Of a stretch of 64,000 bases of DNA, positions 14,220-22,609 are shown piece by piece. Position 1 is the stretch's first letter, and each line of letters opens with the position of its first letter. Under the pieces are notes generated by a model that was given only the letters and a program-made list of their open reading frames with translations, did no database searches and was not told where the DNA came from. The stretch is from the NCBI RefSeq assembly GCF_030286045.1, contig NZ_CP127390.1, positions 1,488,001-1,552,000 of the forward strand, given 5' to 3'. The position numbers and the translations under genes are program-made. The stretch comes from Propionimicrobium sp. PCR01-08-3. Lineage in GTDB: Bacteria > Actinomycetota > Actinomycetes > Propionibacteriales > Propionibacteriaceae.

Positions 14220-16550
14220 ATGACCGCGGGCAGCGAAGACAACCAAGGCCGGGCCGAGTGGATCACGGTCGAGGGAGCACGGACGAACAACCTGCGCGAT
14301 GTCACGGTGCGGGTGCCGAAGCATCGCATCACGGTGTTCACCGGGGTATCCGGGTCGGGGAAGTCGTCCCTGGCGTTCGGTACGATCGCCGCCGAGGCAC
14401 AGCGGTTGGTCGCCGACTCGTATCCACTGTTCGTCCGCAACCGCCTGCCATCGAGCGGACGCGCCGATGTCGACCGCGTCGATGGGCTGATGTTCACCAC
14501 GGTGGTGGACCAGCGTCCGTTCACCGGTAATGCCCGCTCCACGGTCGGTACCGCAAGCGATATCGCGCCGCTGCTGCGCATGCTGTTCTCCCGCATCGGG
14601 GAGCCGAACGCCGGCTATTCACCGGCGTACTCATTCAACGATCCGTCCGGAATGTGCCCGAGATGTGAGGGCCTGGGCACGATCGACGACATCGACCTCG
14701 GCGAGTTGATCGATCCCTCACGCAGTCTCAACGAGGGCGCCATCCGATTCCCGACCTTCGCGCCGAGCACCTATAGGTGGAAGCGAATGGTGCACTCAGG
14801 GCTGGCTGACCCCGATTCGCCGCTGTCCCGGTTGCCGGACGAAGCCCTGCACACGCTGCTGTATGCCGAGAACCTGACCTTGCCGAACCCCGACCCGCAG
14901 TATCCGAAATCGAGCACCTTCGACGGGGTCATCCCGAGACTGCGCAAGAGTTATCTGCGCCGGACGCCATCTCGGCTCACCGATGACGAACGGGCCGGAT
15001 TGAACCGAGTCGTGACCCGCATGACCTGCCCGGAGTGCAGCGGCGCACGCTTGAATACAGCCGCGCGAGCCAGCCTGATCGATGGGCGATCGATCGCGGA
15101 CTGGTCGGCAGCACCGATCAGCGAATTGCGCACGATCGCCGGCGATGTCGACGATCAGCGAGTCGGCCCGGTGCTCGACGCCATCTTGGCCCGGCTCGAC
15201 TCGATGGACGAGGTCGGCCTCGGCTACCTCAGCCTGGATCGCCTGTCGACGACTCTTTCGGGCGGGGAGACCCAGCGCGTGAAGATCGTCCGTCATCTCG
15301 GCAGCGCGCTCAGCGATGTCTGTTACGTCTTCGATGAGCCGAGTGTGGGTCTTCATCCCCACGATGTCCACCGGCTGCTGACCCTTCTCGTCCGGTTGCG
15401 GGACGCTCACAACACCGTCCTGGTCGTCGAACACCATCCCGCCGTCATCACCGCCGCCGACCAGGTGATCGATCTGGGGCCCGGCGCCGGAACCGATGGC
15501 GGCTGCGTCCAGTTCACCGGGTCGCCGGATGTACTTGCCGCGACGGATACGGCAACAGGTCATATGCTGCACGCACCGATCCCCCTCAACCGCCGCCCTC
15601 GCCGGGCGTCGGGAACGGTGACGATCGAACACGCCGATGCCCACAACCTCCGCGACGTCACCGTGGACATTCCGCTCGGCGTGCTCACGGTCGTGTCCGG
15701 GGTTGCCGGATCGGGAAAGAGCACGTTGGTCGCTGACGTTCTGCCTCGTCAGCATCCCGAGTTCACGGTCATCGGCCAGGAGCCACTGCACGGCGGCACC
15801 AGATCGACCCCGGCGACCGTGCTCGGCATTGCCGAGCCCATCCGCAAGGCTTTTGCCGCCGCGAACGGTCTTTCCCAATCGTGGTTCAGCGCCAACGCCC
15901 GCGGCGCCTGCCCACAATGCAAAGGCAGGGGCAGCATCGTCACCGACCTCGCGTTTCTCGACGACGTGAGCACGCCCTGCGAAGCCTGCGGCGGCACCCG
16001 TTTCAACCCGACGGCGCTGGCTGCCACATTCTGCGGCCACACCATCGCCGAGGTCCTGGCGATGAATGTGACGCGGGCGGCCCCGTTGTTCGCCGCTCAT
16101 GCCGAGATCACCACTCGGCTGACCTGGTTGGACGATGTCGGACTGGGATACCTCGCCATCGGGCAGGCCACCAGCACTTTGTCCGGCGGGGAACGTCAGC
16201 GCCTGCTGCTCGCCAAGCACCTGTCCGACACGAGTGCGGCCGAAGGGCTACGGATCGTGCTCGACGAGCCCACCGCGGGGCTCCACGGAGATGACACCGA
16301 CCGGCTGCTGGCTCTGTTCGACCGCCTCGTCGACAACGGCGCGACCATCGTCGTGATCGAACACAACCAGCGCGTCATCGCCCACGCCGACCACATCATC
16401 GACATCGGGCCAGGAGCAGGACATGACGGCGGGACCGTCGTCTATCAGGGCCCGGTCGCCGGGCTGCTCACGGCTCCGGGATCGTTGACAGGCGAGTACC
16501 TTCACCGCGCTGGGGATGCCGAATCGAGGTCATCCACCGTGGTGAGGTAG
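14220..16550 (+). CDS. UvrA-like ABC ATPase, short form
   Basis: 776 residues, shorter than the roughly 950 of housekeeping UvrA. It has two ABC modules: Walker [15 protein letters not shown] near residue 40 with signature [11 protein letters not shown] and Walker [16 protein letters not shown], then a second Walker [15 protein letters not shown] with [13 protein letters not shown] and [13 protein letters not shown]. Zinc-type motifs CPRCEG, CPECSG and CPQCKG with CEACGG are present. The UvrB-binding segment of true UvrA appears to be missing, as in UvrA2/DrrC-like proteins of actinobacteria linked to DNA-damage or DNA-binding-drug tolerance. It is divergent from the CsoR-like gene and lies 5' of the SOS mutasome genes. 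Confidence 0.9.
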
Positions 16551-16688: not shown

Positions 16689-16704
16689 TCGAACTCTTGT
16701 TCGA
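16689..16704 (+). promoter_or_regulatory. LexA-binding SOS box
   Basis: TCGAACTCTTGTTCGA is a perfect palindromic match to the mycobacterial/Bacillus-type consensus TCGAAC-N4-GTTCGA. It lies about 10 bp before the likely imuA' start, so LexA bound here would block the whole imuA'-imuB-dnaE2 operon until DNA damage. Confidence 0.93.
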
Positions 16705-16714
16705 TAGTAGAAGG

Positions 16715-17413
16715 GTGTTGGTCAACTCTGCTGCGGCTCGACCGGTTCCCCAGGGGGACCTTCTGCGGCGGCTGCATACTCAGGCAGCCGCCGGCACCCG
16801 GCTGCAGCAGAAAGTGCCGGTGCATCCGGTGCTGACAGGCCTTCTCGATGGCGGCTTGCAGCCCGGCGCCGCCTATTCGATAACAGGTGGCTCCTTGCTC
16901 CTGGCACTGTTGGCCGAACCTTCGAAGGCAGGCGCGTGGTGCGGGGTGGTGGGCGTCCCTGAGTTGGGGACGGAGGCCGCCCGCAGTGCGGGGGTCGCAT
17001 TGGATCGGCTTGTTCTGGTACCGAAACCGGGGGAGCGTTGGCTTTCGGTGGTGGCCGCGCTGGCCGAGGCGCTGCCGGTAGTGGCCGTGCGTCCACCTGG
17101 GCGGGTGCCAGATGCGGACGCCAACCGGCTCGCCGCCCGCCTTCGGGAGCGTTCAGCAGTGTTGCTGGTCTGCGGAGAGTGGCCCAGAACACAGATGACT
17201 CTCACTCTCACCGAGAGGCATTGGTCGGGGCTGGGTTCGGGCCACGGCTACCTGAGCTCTCGTGAGGTGGTGATCAGTGCCGTCGACAAGCGCCAAGCCA
17301 TGCCGCGCATCGCCCGGATGATCCTGCCCGATGCCCACGGACGACCGGCCGAGGCTCCCGAACGAGATTCTGATCAGTTCCGGTCACGTCCCAGGTTGAG
17401 GGCGGTGAGCTGA
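16715..17413 (+). CDS. imuA': ImuA'-type RecA-like mutasome accessory protein
   Basis: About 232 residues. The protein resembles actinobacterial ImuA': a degenerate RecA-fold with GLLDGGLQPGAAYSITGGSLLLALLAE in the place of a P-loop, then WCGVVGVPELGTEAARSAGVALDRL and the LAARLRERSAVLLV strand. No true Walker A is present, as is usual for this family. It would connect ImuB and the error-prone polymerase to the damage response. The open frame begins at TTG 16697 inside the LexA box, so a start at GTG 16715, TTG 16718 or further in is more likely; no clear ribosome site decides it. Its stop overlaps the next small ORF in TGATG. Confidence 0.82.
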   Translation: MLVNSAAARPVPQGDLLRRLHTQAAAGTRLQQKVPVHPVLTGLLDGGLQPGAAYSITGGSLLLALLAEPSKAGAWCGVVGVPELGTEAARSAGVALDRLVLVPKPGERWLSVVAALAEALPVVAVRPPGRVPDADANRLAARLRERSAVLLVCGEWPRTQMTLTLTERHWSGLGSGHGYLSSREVVISAVDKRQAMPRIARMILPDAHGRPAEAPERDSDQFRSRPRLRAVS

Positions 17414-17538
17414 TGAACAGCCAGCATCACATGCATGGGAAGGCCCGGGGCCCGCATCAAGAAGTTGTTCTCTGCTATTTCGGACCGCGGGAAACCTTCG
17501 TGTTCTTGCCTCGGTTCATGAAAGCGGTGGGCCAATGA
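17413..17538 (+). CDS. 41-residue ORF coupled to imuA' and imuB
   Basis: MNSQHHMHGKARGPHQEVV... to a C-terminal FLPRFMKAVGQ. The ATG overlaps the imuA' stop by one base (TGATG), and its TGA overlaps the imuB ATG by four bases (ATGA at 17535-17538). imuB has no recognisable ribosome site, so ribosomes terminating on this ORF could deliver its translation. The product is His-rich at the front and has an aromatic VLCYFGPRETFVFLPRF stretch. No family is recognised. It may be a real small mutasome component, a translational relay, or a chance open frame; the double overlap favours translation. Confidence 0.6.
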   Translation: MNSQHHMHGKARGPHQEVVLCYFGPRETFVFLPRFMKAVGQ

Positions 17539-19076
17539 ATACCGCATCTACCCCGACCAGATGCCTGGTCGCCTTGTTTCCTGATTGGCCGGTTACCGCT
17601 TGGTGGCTATCTGACCAGCGTCCGCACACCGGCGCGGTGGCGATCGTCGAAGCCAATCGGGTGATCTCCTGTTCACCGGACGCACGCGCCGAAGGCGTGC
17701 AAACCGGCCATCGCCTGCGCGAGGCACAATCCCGGTGTTCGAAACTGCAGATCGTGCCCGCCGACCCGGTGCGCGACGAATTGATGTTCACTCCGCTGGT
17801 GGTTCAGATCGAGCAGGTGACGCCGAAGGTGCAGATCGTGCGCCCGGGGTTGGCCGCCATGCGCGCCAGGGGACCGGCCCGTTACTACGGCGGTGAAGAC
17901 CAGGCAGCCTGCACGGTATTGGAACAGACCCACCAGCTGGGTATCGCGGGCGGCAAGGCGGCAGTGGCCGATGGCTTGTTCACCGCCGAGCAGGCAGCAC
18001 AATTCGCCGATCCGATAGCGGTGATACCTCCCGGCAGATCGGGTGAGTTCTTGGCACCTTTGCCGGTCGACCGGTTGGACGATGCCGAGCTGAGTGAACT
18101 GCTGCCCAGGCTCGGCATCCACAAACTCGGCGACTTCGCGGGCTTGACGACCACCGATGTGCGCGCCCGGTTCGGCGAGCATGGCGTCCGGTTGCATGAG
18201 CTGGCCCGCGGAAACGACCTGCGCGAGATCGTTCCCCGCGTTCAGCCTCGTGATTTCGCCCGGCAGATCGATTTCGATCCGCCGCTGGCGCTGGCCGAGC
18301 AGGTCGCCTTCAGTATGCAGACGACCGCCGATGATTTCATCGCCTCGCTGGCCGCCCAGCAGTTGGTATGTACCGAGCTTCGGGTGATCTTGCAGGCCGA
18401 GCAAGGCGAGTACTCCGAACGGGTCTGGGCCCACCCTGGTTGCTTCGATGCGCCGGGGGTGGTCGACCGGGTGCGCTGGCAACTGCAGGCAGCCGCAGGA
18501 GATGTGATCGGCAGCGGATTGGTACGGGTGCGTCTCGAACCGGTGGCGACCGATGCCATCGCCCATCACGCGCCCGGGCTGTTCGGTTCGGGCTCCGACG
18601 AGCGGGTTCATCATGTGCTCTCCAGGGTGCAGGCGATGCTCGGCCATGAATCGGTGGTGACACCAGCGATAGGCGGTGGCCGCGAATTGGCCGAGCGTCA
18701 GCTCTTGGTGCCATGGGGCGATCGGGTCGTCTCACCCAGGCCGGCCGATCGTCCATGGCCAGGGCACCTGCCCGATCCGCTACCGGCCACGGTTTTTCCC
18801 GGGCTTCGCCGGGTGGAAGTGACCGATGCCGATGGGGCCAGAGTTCGGGTGAATGACCGGCTGCTGTTGACCAGCGTCCCGGTACAGCTATCGGTGGGCG
18901 CCGTGACATTGCAGTTGGCGAGTTGGGCGGGCCCCTGGCCGGTCGACGAACGCGGCTGGGATGGTGAGCACGCCAAGCAAAATTGCCGCTTTCAGGTTGC
19001 GGACGCCACGGGCGGCGCCTGGCTGCTGGTGCTCGACGCCCAAGGTGCGTGGTGGGCGGAAGGCAGGTACGACTGA
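17535..19076 (+). CDS. imuB: ImuB, catalytically inactive Y-family polymerase homolog
   Basis: 513 residues. The N-terminal LVALFPDWPVTAWW, SPDARAEGVQTGHRLREAQSRC and the helix-hairpin LLPRLGIHKLGDFAGL follow the DinB/ImuB family, and the little-finger region (LAEQVAFSMQTTADDFI) follows. The acidic catalytic residues of a working Y-family polymerase are not in their usual places (LFPDWPV, then LAAMRARGPARYYGG), which fits its known role as a hub binding the beta clamp, ImuA' and DnaE2. A plausible clamp-binding QLASWAGPW-like patch is near the C-terminus, but this is not certain. It overlaps dnaE2 by one base (TGATG). Confidence 0.92.
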   Translation: MNTASTPTRCLVALFPDWPVTAWWLSDQRPHTGAVAIVEANRVISCSPDARAEGVQTGHRLREAQSRCSKLQIVPADPVRDELMFTPLVVQIEQVTPKVQIVRPGLAAMRARGPARYYGGEDQAACTVLEQTHQLGIAGGKAAVADGLFTAEQAAQFADPIAVIPPGRSGEFLAPLPVDRLDDAELSELLPRLGIHKLGDFAGLTTTDVRARFGEHGVRLHELARGNDLREIVPRVQPRDFARQIDFDPPLALAEQVAFSMQTTADDFIASLAAQQLVCTELRVILQAEQGEYSERVWAHPGCFDAPGVVDRVRWQLQAAAGDVIGSGLVRVRLEPVATDAIAHHAPGLFGSGSDERVHHVLSRVQAMLGHESVVTPAIGGGRELAERQLLVPWGDRVVSPRPADRPWPGHLPDPLPATVFPGLRRVEVTDADGARVRVNDRLLLTSVPVQLSVGAVTLQLASWAGPWPVDERGWDGEHAKQNCRFQVADATGGAWLLVLDAQGAWWAEGRYD

Positions 19077-22000
19077 TGGGCTACCACAATCCGCCGATCA
19101 CCTGGCGCCAACTCGAGGGGACGCTGACCGGGCGCAAGAAACCCGACGAATCGGATGCGCCGTTCTCCTGGAAACGTGGTCCCTATCAGGCACCGCCGAT
19201 CGTGCGTCCCGAAGATGGCGTGCCCTATGCCGAACTGCATGCTCATTCGTCCTTCTCGTTCTTGGACGGCGCATCCGGGCCCGCCGAACTGGTCGAGGAG
19301 GCCGAACGGTTGGGGCTGTACGGGATGGCGTTGACCGATCATGACGGGCTGTATGGCATCGTCCGGTTTGCGGAAGCCGCCGAGCAGACCAGCGTGAAGA
19401 CCATCTTCGGGGCAGAACTTTCACTGGAGCTACCTGCACCGCAGAAGGGGGTTGCCGATCCGGTCGGCAGTCATCTGCTGGTGCTGGCTCGCGGCGAGGA
19501 GGGGTACCACCGGTTGGCCGGTGCGCTCACTGCTGCCCAGCTGGCCGGGAAGGAGAAGGGGCGCCCGGTCTATGACCTGGATGATCTGGCCGATCGTGCC
19601 AATGGCGAGTGGGTGATTCTGACTGGCTGCCGCAAGGGCACGGTCCGGCAGGCGCTGGTGGCAGGTGGGCCCACCGAGGCCTCACGGGCAATGGCCGACC
19701 TGGTCGATCGTTTCGGACGCGAACAGGTTTACGTCGAGTTGACCGACCACGGCAATCCGATGGACTCCACGCACAACGATGTGCTCGCCGAGCTGGCCGG
19801 TGAGCAGACGCTGCCGGTGGTGGCGACCGGTAACGTGCACTATGCGAACCCCGGCAAGCATCAGCTGGCTCAGGCGGTGGCCGCGGTCAGGGCGAACCGC
19901 AGCATGGATGAACTCGATGGTTGGCTGCCCGCTGCAGGCACGGCGTTTGTGCGCTCGGGGGCAGAGATGCAGCAGCTTTTCGCGCGTTACCCGGATGCTG
20001 TTGAACGCACCGTCGAGTTGGCCGATGAGCTTGCTTTTCCGTTGCGCCGGGCCAAACCCGCCCTGCCGAAACAAGAAGTGCCGCCCGGTCACACGCCGAT
20101 GTCGTGGCTGCGTGAGCTGGTGTGGCAGGCGGTGCCGCGCAAGTATCCCGATCTGGACGATGCCGGACGCACCCGCATCGCCCATGAGCTGGAGGTGATC
20201 GAGACCAAGGATTTTCCCGGCTACTTCTTGATCGTGCATGACATCGTGGCCGAGGCCAGACGCCGGGGCATCTTGTGCCAGGGCCGGGGTTCGGCGGCCA
20301 ATTCGGCGATCTGTTATCTGCTCGACATCACCGCTGTCGATGCGATCTTCTTCAACCTGCCGTTCGAGAGGTTCTTGTCGTCGCTGCGTGAAGAAGAACC
20401 AGACATCGATGTCGATTTTGATTCCGATCGCCGCGAGGAGATCATTCAATGGGTCTTCGAAAAATATGGACGCGAACGTGCCGCCCAGGTCTGCAATGTC
20501 ATTCAGTACCGCCCGAAGAACGCGGTACGCGATATCGCGAAATCGCTCGGATATTCCTCGGGCCAGCAGGACGCATTCTCGCGTGATCTCGAACGCCATG
20601 ACATATCTCTTGGTAGCGGTCCGGGTGACGATATTCCATCCCAGGTCGCCAGCCTTGCGAACCAGCTGCTGAAGGCACCCAGGCATTTGGGTATTCATTC
20701 CGGCGGCATGGTGCTGACCGAGCGTCCGGTGGGGGAAGTGGTGCCGATCGAGCATGCCCGGATGCCGGGCCGCACGGTGATCCAGTGGGACAAGGACGAT
20801 GCCGCCTGGATGGGGTTGGTGAAGTTCGACCTGCTGGGGTTGGGCATGCTGGCTGCGCTGCAGCATTGCTTCGATCTGATCCAGAGCTCGACCGGTGAGG
20901 TGTGGGAGTTGGCCACCTTGCCGAAGGAGGAAAAGAGCGTCTACGACATGTTGTGCCGAGCCGATTCGATCGGTGTTTTTCAGGTCGAATCTCGTGCTCA
21001 GATGGGGTTGTTGCCGAGGCTTCAGCCGCGCCGATTCTATGATCTGGCGATTCAGATCGCACTGATCAGGCCCGGGCCCATTCAAGGTGGGGCGGTGCAT
21101 CCGTTCGTGCGCCGCAAGCTCGGGCGCGATCCGGTGAGCTACCTGCACCCCAAACTGGAGCCGGTTTTGGCCCGCACCTTGGGGGTGCCGGTCTTTCAGG
21201 AGCAGCTGATGCAGATGGCCATGGCGGTGGGGGACTGCTCCGGTGAGGACGCCGACCTGCTGCGCCGGGCCATGGGTTCGAAACGCGGCCTGGAGCGCAT
21301 CGAATCGGTGCGGGAGCGGCTCTATGCCGGCATGAAACGCAATGGTCTGGACGATGACTCGGCCGATATTATTTATAACCAGATTCAGGCCTTCGCCAAT
21401 TTCGGGTTCGCCGAATCACATTCGCTGAGTTTCGCATTATTGGTTTACGCCAGTTCGTGGCTCAAGCTGCATTATCCGGCGGCTTTTCTTGCCGGGTTAC
21501 TCAGGGCCCAGCCGATGGGCTTTTATTCTTCGGAGACATTGACGGCCGATGCCCGCAGGCATGGGGTCGAGGTGAGGCGGCCCGATTTACTGCTCTCCGG
21601 GGTGGACGCCGGACTCGAGCTCGGAACAAATGAAATACCCTCGGCCGTACCGGCCACAGATCGTGAACACGCACCCGAACGGCTACCGGCGAAAGCTGCA
21701 GCAATCTCCGATCCAGATCACGCTCATTCCGGTAATGAAACGAGCCTCTCCTGCACACCCTCGCCCCTGAATAATGCGCGGTCTCAATGTAGGCAGGCCG
21801 GGCCCACCGGAATGGCGTCGTGTCTGGAGCGCTACCAGCCGCCAGTAGGGGAGTTCGACCCGAATGAGCCCGACGAGGGGGCCGCGCATCGCCGCGATGG
21901 TCACTTCGTGGTGCGGTTGGGATTAACGAATGTGCATGGCATCGGACGTGATCTGGCCACACGCATCGTCACCGAGCGCGAACAGGCGGGGAAGTACCGC

Positions 22001-22609
22001 TCGATGGAGGACCTCGTCCGCAGGACCGGGGTGACCGAGGCGCAGCTAACGGCGCTGGCAACGGCAGGAGCCTTCGACCCGCTGGGATTGACCAGGCGAC
22101 AGGCCTTGTGGCGCGCCGGCACCGCAGCCCTTGACCGGGCCGATACCTTGCCGGGCACGATCAATCCGCTGCAGCCGCCGCTGTTCGAAGACCAGACCGG
22201 CTTGGAGCGCCTGTCCGATGATCTGTCTTCGACCGGGGTATCCGTTGATGACCACGCGATCGCCCATATCCGCAATCAGTTGGCGAAGCGCGGGGTTCTG
22301 ACCTCTGCCGAGCTGCGCACCTTTGAATCCGGACGCCGGGTCCAGGCGGCAGGGTTGGTGACGCATCGGCAGCGCCCCTCGACCGCGTCCGGGATCACCT
22401 TCATGAACCTGGAGGACGAATTCGGCCTGATCAATGTGATCTGCTCTCGGGGGCTGTGGCAACGTTACCGGCGTATCGCCCGATCGTCGGCGGCACTGAT
22501 CGTCCGGGGCAAGCTGGAACGCTCTCCGGAAGGAATCGTCAACCTGCTGGCCGACCGTCTTGAGCCGGTGACCATAGACGTCACCCATCGCTCGCGCGAT
22601 TTTCAATGA
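19076..22609 (+). CDS. dnaE2: Error-prone DNA polymerase DnaE2 with an unusual insertion
   Basis: 1177 residues from ATG 19076; the frame upstream is inside imuB. It performs damage-induced mutagenic synthesis with ImuB. The PHP domain starts at YAELHAHSSFSFLDGA and has LTDHDGLYGIV; the polymerase active site has EEPDIDVDFDSDRREE and the upstream ILCQGRGSAANSAICYL; then AFANFGFAESHSLSFALLVY and a C-terminal OB-fold with GLINVICSRGLWQRYR. Around residues 845-930 (nucleotides about 21600-21880) lies a low-complexity, Ser/Thr/Ala-rich segment between SGVDAGLELG and HFVVRLGLTNVHGIGRDL that ordinary DnaE2 sequences do not have, as far as I recall. Confidence 0.94.
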   Translation: MGYHNPPITWRQLEGTLTGRKKPDESDAPFSWKRGPYQAPPIVRPEDGVPYAELHAHSSFSFLDGASGPAELVEEAERLGLYGMALTDHDGLYGIVRFAEAAEQTSVKTIFGAELSLELPAPQKGVADPVGSHLLVLARGEEGYHRLAGALTAAQLAGKEKGRPVYDLDDLADRANGEWVILTGCRKGTVRQALVAGGPTEASRAMADLVDRFGREQVYVELTDHGNPMDSTHNDVLAELAGEQTLPVVATGNVHYANPGKHQLAQAVAAVRANRSMDELDGWLPAAGTAFVRSGAEMQQLFARYPDAVERTVELADELAFPLRRAKPALPKQEVPPGHTPMSWLRELVWQAVPRKYPDLDDAGRTRIAHELEVIETKDFPGYFLIVHDIVAEARRRGILCQGRGSAANSAICYLLDITAVDAIFFNLPFERFLSSLREEEPDIDVDFDSDRREEIIQWVFEKYGRERAAQVCNVIQYRPKNAVRDIAKSLGYSSGQQDAFSRDLERHDISLGSGPGDDIPSQVASLANQLLKAPRHLGIHSGGMVLTERPVGEVVPIEHARMPGRTVIQWDKDDAAWMGLVKFDLLGLGMLAALQHCFDLIQSSTGEVWELATLPKEEKSVYDMLCRADSIGVFQVESRAQMGLLPRLQPRRFYDLAIQIALIRPGPIQGGAVHPFVRRKLGRDPVSYLHPKLEPVLARTLGVPVFQEQLMQMAMAVGDCSGEDADLLRRAMGSKRGLERIESVRERLYAGMKRNGLDDDSADIIYNQIQAFANFGFAESHSLSFALLVYASSWLKLHYPAAFLAGLLRAQPMGFYSSETLTADARRHGVEVRRPDLLLSGVDAGLELGTNEIPSAVPATDREHAPERLPAKAAAISDPDHAHSGNETSLSCTPSPLNNARSQCRQAGPTGMASCLERYQPPVGEFDPNEPDEGAAHRRDGHFVVRLGLTNVHGIGRDLATRIVTEREQAGKYRSMEDLVRRTGVTEAQLTALATAGAFDPLGLTRRQALWRAGTAALDRADTLPGTINPLQPPLFEDQTGLERLSDDLSSTGVSVDDHAIAHIRNQLAKRGVLTSAELRTFESGRRVQAAGLVTHRQRPSTASGITFMNLEDEFGLINVICSRGLWQRYRRIARSSAALIVRGKLERSPEGIVNLLADRLEPVTIDVTHRSRDFQ

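Follow-up and report, generated by a model that had tools for sequence, protein, structure and literature searches.

The window, as the whole 64,000-nucleotide stretch of DNA analysed here is called, carries an SOS mutasome cassette in which imuA', a 41-codon ORF, imuB and dnaE2 follow one another in that order, the genes being recognized by family-level matches (Table 1). A LexA box similar to that of the window was found at the imuA' start in 8 of the 9 relative loci scanned, the exception being L129. Because the box in the window covers TTG 16697, the first possible start of imuA', the true start is probably located further downstream, e.g. at 16715 or 16718. The initial annotation described the cassette as a four-step chain with an overlap at each junction, and this arrangement was confirmed. 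The ORF, encoding the peptide MNSQHHMHGKARGPHQEVVLCYFGPRETFVFLPRFMKAVGQ, starts on the imuA' stop codon (TGA 17411-17413 and ATG 17413, forming TGATG) and ends on the imuB start codon (TGA 17536-17538 and ATG 17535, forming ATGA), and the stop codon of imuB also overlaps the start codon of dnaE2 (TGA 19074-19076 and ATG 19076, again TGATG).

Table 1. Features of the mutasome cassette and of the imuA'-imuB junction in the window
Feature	Position	Strand	Basis
LexA (SOS) box TCGAACTCTTGTTCGA	16689..16704	+	Exact match, 0 mismatches; upstream of the cassette
imuA'	16697..17413	+	NCBIfam NF058630, 174 bits (cut-off 65); ORF list
Junction element copy 1 TGAGGGCGGTGAGCTGATGAA	17397..17417	+	imuA' 3' end; direct repeat D1, spacing 122
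41-codon out-of-frame bridging ORF (putative relay)	17413..17538	+	Reading frame; absent in the relatives examined
Junction element copy 2 TGAAAGCGGTGGGCCAATGAA	17519..17539	+	76% to copy 1
imuB	17535..19076	+	Pfam IMS PF00817, 32.8 bits (cut-off 23.2), E 8e-8
dnaE2	19076..22609	+	NCBIfam NF004225, 1394 bits (cut-off 939)

Relatives of imuB are present in four genomes of the same genus (59-75% identity). No convincing imuB match was found in three of the eight same-genus genomes (G001, G002, and G003); G001 and G003 are fragmented drafts, and the weak-match region in G002 contains neither imuA' nor dnaE2. Upstream of the cassette and on the same strand (14220-16550), a UvrA-like protein of 776 aa is encoded, whose scores do not reach the cut-offs of the UvrA families. 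DnaE2 of the window is longer than that of its closest relatives, L128 and L129, by ~50 residues in a variable linker (21630-21800), which makes this the second place in the operon with an expansion specific to the lineage.

Extra sequence between imuA' and imuB

The collection of imuB relatives drew on 57 genomes of the same genus, family, or order, on GTDB contigs (10 loci, including those of Propionicimonas and Micropruina), and on 198 genomes of the family, 69 of which yielded a match at E 1e-30. To judge from the named loci, the window probably has its place close to these two genera within the Propionibacteriaceae. Among the 27 distinct junctions with an imuB at least 50% identical, imuB overlaps imuA' in 19 and follows after a gap of 1-3 nt in 7, and only in the window are the two genes separated. 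L071 (imuB 58% identical) was left out of the junction counts because its imuA' is not recognizable. In the closest relatives (imuB 75, 72, 69, 67, and 66% identical), the imuA' stop and imuB start codons overlap directly, the imuA' product ends in LRAVG or LQAVG, and the DNA reads, for example, GCGGTGGGCTGATG. Since the relatives start imuB at the imuA' stop, the ATG of the 41-codon ORF occupies the position of their imuB start, and ~122 nt are extra in the window. This is also the distance from the ORF start to the imuB start, and imuA' and imuB of the window are connected by overlaps only via the additional ORF. Direct contact between the two genes is not strictly defining for such cassettes; 22 of 174 and 13 of 76 junctions in the surveys described below are separated by >12 nt. 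The 41-codon ORF is lineage-specific among the relatives examined.

The extra stretch has a G+C content of 57% (63% in the window), and no homology between the 122 nt and imuA' or imuB was found, the DNA level included. An insertion element or repeat was rejected as its source: there is no further significant copy of the 181-nt junction stretch (next best match in its own genome, E 0.28; in the genus, E ≥0.02), and plasmid matches span at most 19% of it. A decayed imuA' tail or imuB start was likewise rejected, as the score of the ORF against profiles of the relatives was reached by 1085 of 1121 shuffles (close relatives) and 1113 of 1307 (all), and by 859 of 1083 in a further profile test; with the former profiles, another frame of the stretch outscored the ORF (2.5 bits). 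As for a riboswitch or other RNA element, the one Rfam match lies outside the ORF and under the gathering score of its family. The RNA fold at the junction is not unusual (z 0.21), and no internal sigma-70-type promoter was found. Just inside the imuB coding start (17554-17571), there is a terminator-like stem-loop of 7 pairs (CGACCAGATGCCTGGTCG) followed by a T-rich tail; the region contains two terminator-like sites, with 0.7 expected.

imuB was initially regarded as having no visible ribosome site, which is only partly true. A relay calls for a downstream gene without a strong site, and GCGGTGGGC stands directly before ATG 17535, as it does in relatives; GGTGG or GGTCGG precedes imuB in 25 of the 27 junctions, the window included. 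When all 5610 start codons of the window were ranked with a matrix built on the junctions of 18 relatives, the junction element at the imuA' 3' end (copy 1) ranked first and that before imuB (copy 2) 15th. Copy 2 is likely to be the ribosome site of imuB. The two copies form a repeat of 21-22 nt, matching at 16 of 22 positions with all six mismatches being transitions, and this repeat at a spacing of 122, the only sign of a duplication, suggests, without proving it, that the junction was duplicated. It could instead be explained by a shared ribosome site, because a score of 16/22 is also reached by one other among the 1915 ATGs compared, transitions account for only 6 of the 10 mismatches when the repeat is widened to 26 nt, and copy 2 falls to rank 125 of 1917 ATGs once the core columns are left out.

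Survey of imuA'-imuB junctions

Junctions were surveyed in two sets, with d denoting how far the conserved ImuB core lies from the imuA' stop, and a bridge defined as an out-of-frame mini-ORF beginning at the imuA' stop and ending in a stop that overlaps an in-frame imuB start. The first set comprised 192 imuB loci, mostly from the same order, drawn among others from one genus (36 of 38 genomes matched, all examined) and from 293 genomes (179 matched, of which the loci listed and a choice of further places were examined). Eight loci without a recognizable imuA' (including L071) were left out; the remaining 184 gave 177 distinct junctions, and three of these were dropped because the imuB N-terminus was unmatched. 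In the 174 junctions used, imuB overlaps imuA' in 129, follows at a distance of up to 12 nt in 23, and lies further away in 22. Among the separated junctions with d <450, 11 of 17 are bridged, by mini-ORFs of 10 to 72 codons (6.95 expected from shuffles, P 0.0008), and none of the five with d >450 is. The five junctions with d <58, which is too short for a bridge, contain none; within the range of 58-450, 11 of 12 are bridged (6.97 expected, P 0.0006), the lower limit and the looser definition having been chosen after this set was seen. Under the tight test, which accepts exactly -4 or -1 at both ends, the count is 8 of 12 (5.94 expected, P 0.07).

The definitions and range fixed from the first set were applied to a second set of 85 further loci of the class, drawn from part of 159 matching genomes among 394. 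imuA' was recognized in 83 of these; 78 were new and distinct, two were dropped, and 76 were used. Overlaps were found in 51, gaps of ≤12 nt in 11, and separated genes in 13, and one had no usable start. Two of the 10 junctions in the tested range are bridged (L255, 41 codons; L282, 17 codons) and eight are not, the expectation being 0.45 bridges under the loose definition (P 0.06) and 0.38 under the tight one (P 0.04). The two sets combined give 13 of 22 (7.42 expected, P 9e-5; loose) and 10 of 22 (6.33 expected, P 0.005; tight), or 12 of 21 (7.27 expected, P 0.0005) and 9 of 21 (6.18 expected, P 0.02), respectively, without the window; these combined tests treat junctions as independent, and for six of the 13 bridged junctions the four nearest include a further bridged one. 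This recurrence of bridges is the more interesting result, and its statistical support is moderate. The separated junctions that are unbridged (8 of 10 in the second set; five with d <58 and five with d >450 in the first) indicate that coupling is not indispensable.

In 12 cases, the nearest sampled relative of a bridged junction (69-95% DNA identity) has a plain overlap, and in the remaining one an 18-nt gap. That the nearest relatives are unbridged points to separate origins of the bridges, with a reservation for the six that have bridged neighbours. The bridging peptides, compared for 12 of the 13 junctions (L146, with ten residues, was left out), are mostly unrelated. Among these few peptides, the pairs with E <1 were L001-L153 (13 residues, 46%, E 0.006-0.011), L011-L151 (5-6 proline-rich residues, E 0.003 at best), L011-L255 (E 0.02-0.035), and L142-L153 and L255-L282 (both E 0.5-0.8). 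The 36-codon bridge of L156 consists of an ImuB start (MAGRGLTRSM..PDRPVTAAAVATG) followed by an ImuA' tail (WQEEWAEEIGAVG), and a repeat matching at 22 of 26 nt occurs there at a spacing of 110; either match was reached by none of 500 shuffles. The L156 bridge is plainly a tandem duplication of the imuA'-imuB junction. The L011 bridge resembles the 5' region of its own imuB (0 of 500 shuffles) but is of low complexity, and the L146, L151, and L153 bridges show marginal matches (6-10 of 500 shuffles).

Expansions that stay in frame, with the imuB start ≤3 nt from the imuA' stop and 60 ≤ d < 450, were found at 40 junctions. In-frame N-terminal leaders of ImuB at L073, L074, L066, and L136 correspond to d values of 140 to 260 nt, and that of L073 contains repeated motifs. 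In L016-L019, which belong to one genus, a separate gene for a protein of 119-135 aa lies between imuA' and imuB, and the L018 copy matches Pfam DUF1330; no family was obtained for the L016 copy, whose coordinates may have been read on the turned strand.

Interpretation of the 41-codon ORF

The initial annotation offered two readings of the ORF, a translational relay and a small mutasome subunit. The relay is the most likely reading, on the grounds that bridges of mostly unrelated sequence recur above the level of shuffles and that comparable mechanisms have been published (PMC10666635 and PMC11260477); a small subunit is not supported and unlikely. On balance, we favour an out-of-frame expansion of the imuB leader, specific to this lineage and bridged by a mini-ORF that keeps the translation of imuA' and imuB linked. 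An increase of ~122 nt in the short leader that separates the ImuB core from the imuA' stop would, by its length, have shifted the original imuB start (ATG 17413) into another frame. That codon would now be the start of the 41-codon ORF, whose stop overlaps the new imuB start (ATG 17535) with GCGGTGGGC in front. Ribosomes finishing imuA' would begin again at TGATG, translate the ORF to its end at ATGA, and there initiate imuB, and the link between two interacting mutasome subunits would thereby be kept across an insertion that would otherwise break it. ImuA' and ImuB are described as binding each other (PMC11791113), and short overlaps are reported to be common where two genes encode subunits of the same complex (PMC10666635). 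The same article reports that ~20 nt between native gene pairs nearly abolishes termination-reinitiation, and cites earlier studies in which coupling spanned 73 nt and 150-850 nt. By analogy with such systems, the ORF would pass ribosomes from imuA' to imuB. We infer that the ORF is translated, that termination-reinitiation takes place, and that coupling is under selection.

The main rival account, which we regard as possible though rather unlikely, is that of a neutral spacer, in which the 122 nt are inert and open by chance, imuB starts from its own GCGGTGGGC, and the ORF has no role. Thirty-nine codons stay open in 21% of composition-matched shuffles, and 19% of random inserts of the same composition end in exactly the ATGA overlap, since any frame that stays open through an insert of 2 mod 3 in length necessarily runs into the TGA of ATGA; dinucleotide shuffles of the window junction produce a bridge in ~15%. 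The double overlap in the window alone is therefore only weakly beyond chance. A neutral spacer would also fit the presence of the usual imuB junction element before ATG 17535 and the 8 of 10 separated class-level junctions that are unbridged. What argues against it is the excess of bridging in relatives over shuffles, together with codon use in the ORF frame that is better than that of most shuffles: the score is reached by 22 of 5000 plain and 14 of 5000 stop-free plain shuffles and, with the last six codons removed, by 33 of 3000 stop-free dinucleotide shuffles. The cassette region also contains 20 further ATG ORFs with lengths of 35-60 codons, however; the score is exceeded by two of them, both antisense, and nearly matched by another two.

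A genuine mutasome protein of 41 aa, possibly a lineage-specific subunit, is very unlikely. The position of the ORF inside an SOS cassette and its coding-like codon positions (G+C 0.65/0.38/0.68) would suit such a protein, but all 26 relatives have an imuA'-imuB overlap or a gap of ≤3 nt, so that the conserved ORF sought in a check set beforehand proved to be absent. Searches for the peptide in the genus, family, and class genomes yielded no convincing relative: weak matches (E 0.02-1) occurred in 29 of the 198 family genomes besides the window's own, and at E 0.01 the other 393 of the 394 genomes of the class gave no match. Plasmids and phages matched only at E 3 or more, and no family was found in Pfam, NCBIfam, or PHROGs. 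AlphaFold2 run without an alignment gave a low-confidence hairpin (pLDDT 56.6, pTM 0.21), and the bridging peptides at other loci, as noted, mostly share no sequence. The peptide is probably not a conserved functional subunit.

It is equally improbable that the ORF and imuB encode one protein, an N-terminally extended ImuB produced by frameshifting or hidden by a base missing in the assembly. No stop interrupts the imuB frame back to 17409, the two frames would be joined by a change of one base, long in-frame leaders are common in the survey, and stop suppression with frameshifting has been reported for uPPE2-PPE2 (PMC11260477); against this, the ORF frame has the better codon scores as far as about 17503-17535, the longest base run in the ORF is ≤4, and leaders are short in the closest relatives.

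Returning to the relay and taking it beyond the window, we tentatively propose, with less confidence than for this single locus, that the imuA'-imuB junction of Actinomycetes is a site of natural operon repair. The leader would expand repeatedly, at least once by junction duplication, and the out-of-frame cases would keep sequence-independent, doubly overlapping mini-ORFs only as ribosome relays that preserve the translational coupling of two interacting subunits. If this is true, there would be a class of tiny genes in which only the frame and the ends matter and the sequence does not, and such bridging ORFs would be open to misannotation as small proteins. Selection for translational coupling would become visible in natural sequences, and linked synthesis of ImuA' and ImuB would seem to matter for controlled mutagenesis.

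Comparison with known systems

The window encodes the same three components as the ImuA'-ImuB-DnaE2 mutasome described in Actinobacteria (PMC12926913, PMC11791113, and PMC10421592). No further subunit is described in the available parts of these articles, and the window adds the 41-codon ORF. Mycobacterial imuA'-imuB is presented as a two-gene operon (PMC10421592), whereas dnaE2 follows directly in the window. Among the literature matches listed, none referred to bridging ORFs in the imuA'-imuB cassette in its title or the beginning of its abstract.

Overlaps of small ORFs with their neighbours are not rare, to judge from figures given for Enterobacteriaceae (PMC11188072): ~13% of co-directed intergenic small ORFs end ≤10 nt from the downstream start, with an overlap of 1-4 nt in ~37% of such cases. 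Those small ORFs are put forward there as candidate microproteins on the basis of conservation, whereas the ORF of the window is unconserved and overlaps its neighbours at both ends. A small ORF within an operon is also represented by mgtQ, located between mgtC and mgtB of Salmonella (PMC8092293), which is reported to promote translation of the next gene. mgtQ differs in having 8 codons and in its mode of action, the release of a ribosome site from a stem-loop with the aid of ribosome-destabilizing codons; the fold at the window junction, as stated above, is an ordinary one.

The other likeness is to uPPE2-PPE2 of Mycobacterium tuberculosis, which has been named a translational relay (PMC12713380). 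According to PMC11260477, PPE2 needs an out-of-frame uORF with an AUGA overlap, as examined with reporters in M. smegmatis. uPPE2 is located in a riboswitch leader, whereas the ORF of the window lies between two genes of an operon, overlaps at both ends, and is associated with no Rfam family at threshold. The two cases are alike in that a small out-of-frame ORF ends in a TGA overlapping the ATG of the next gene, as seen at 17535-17538, and possibly in that the downstream gene has no strong Shine-Dalgarno site.
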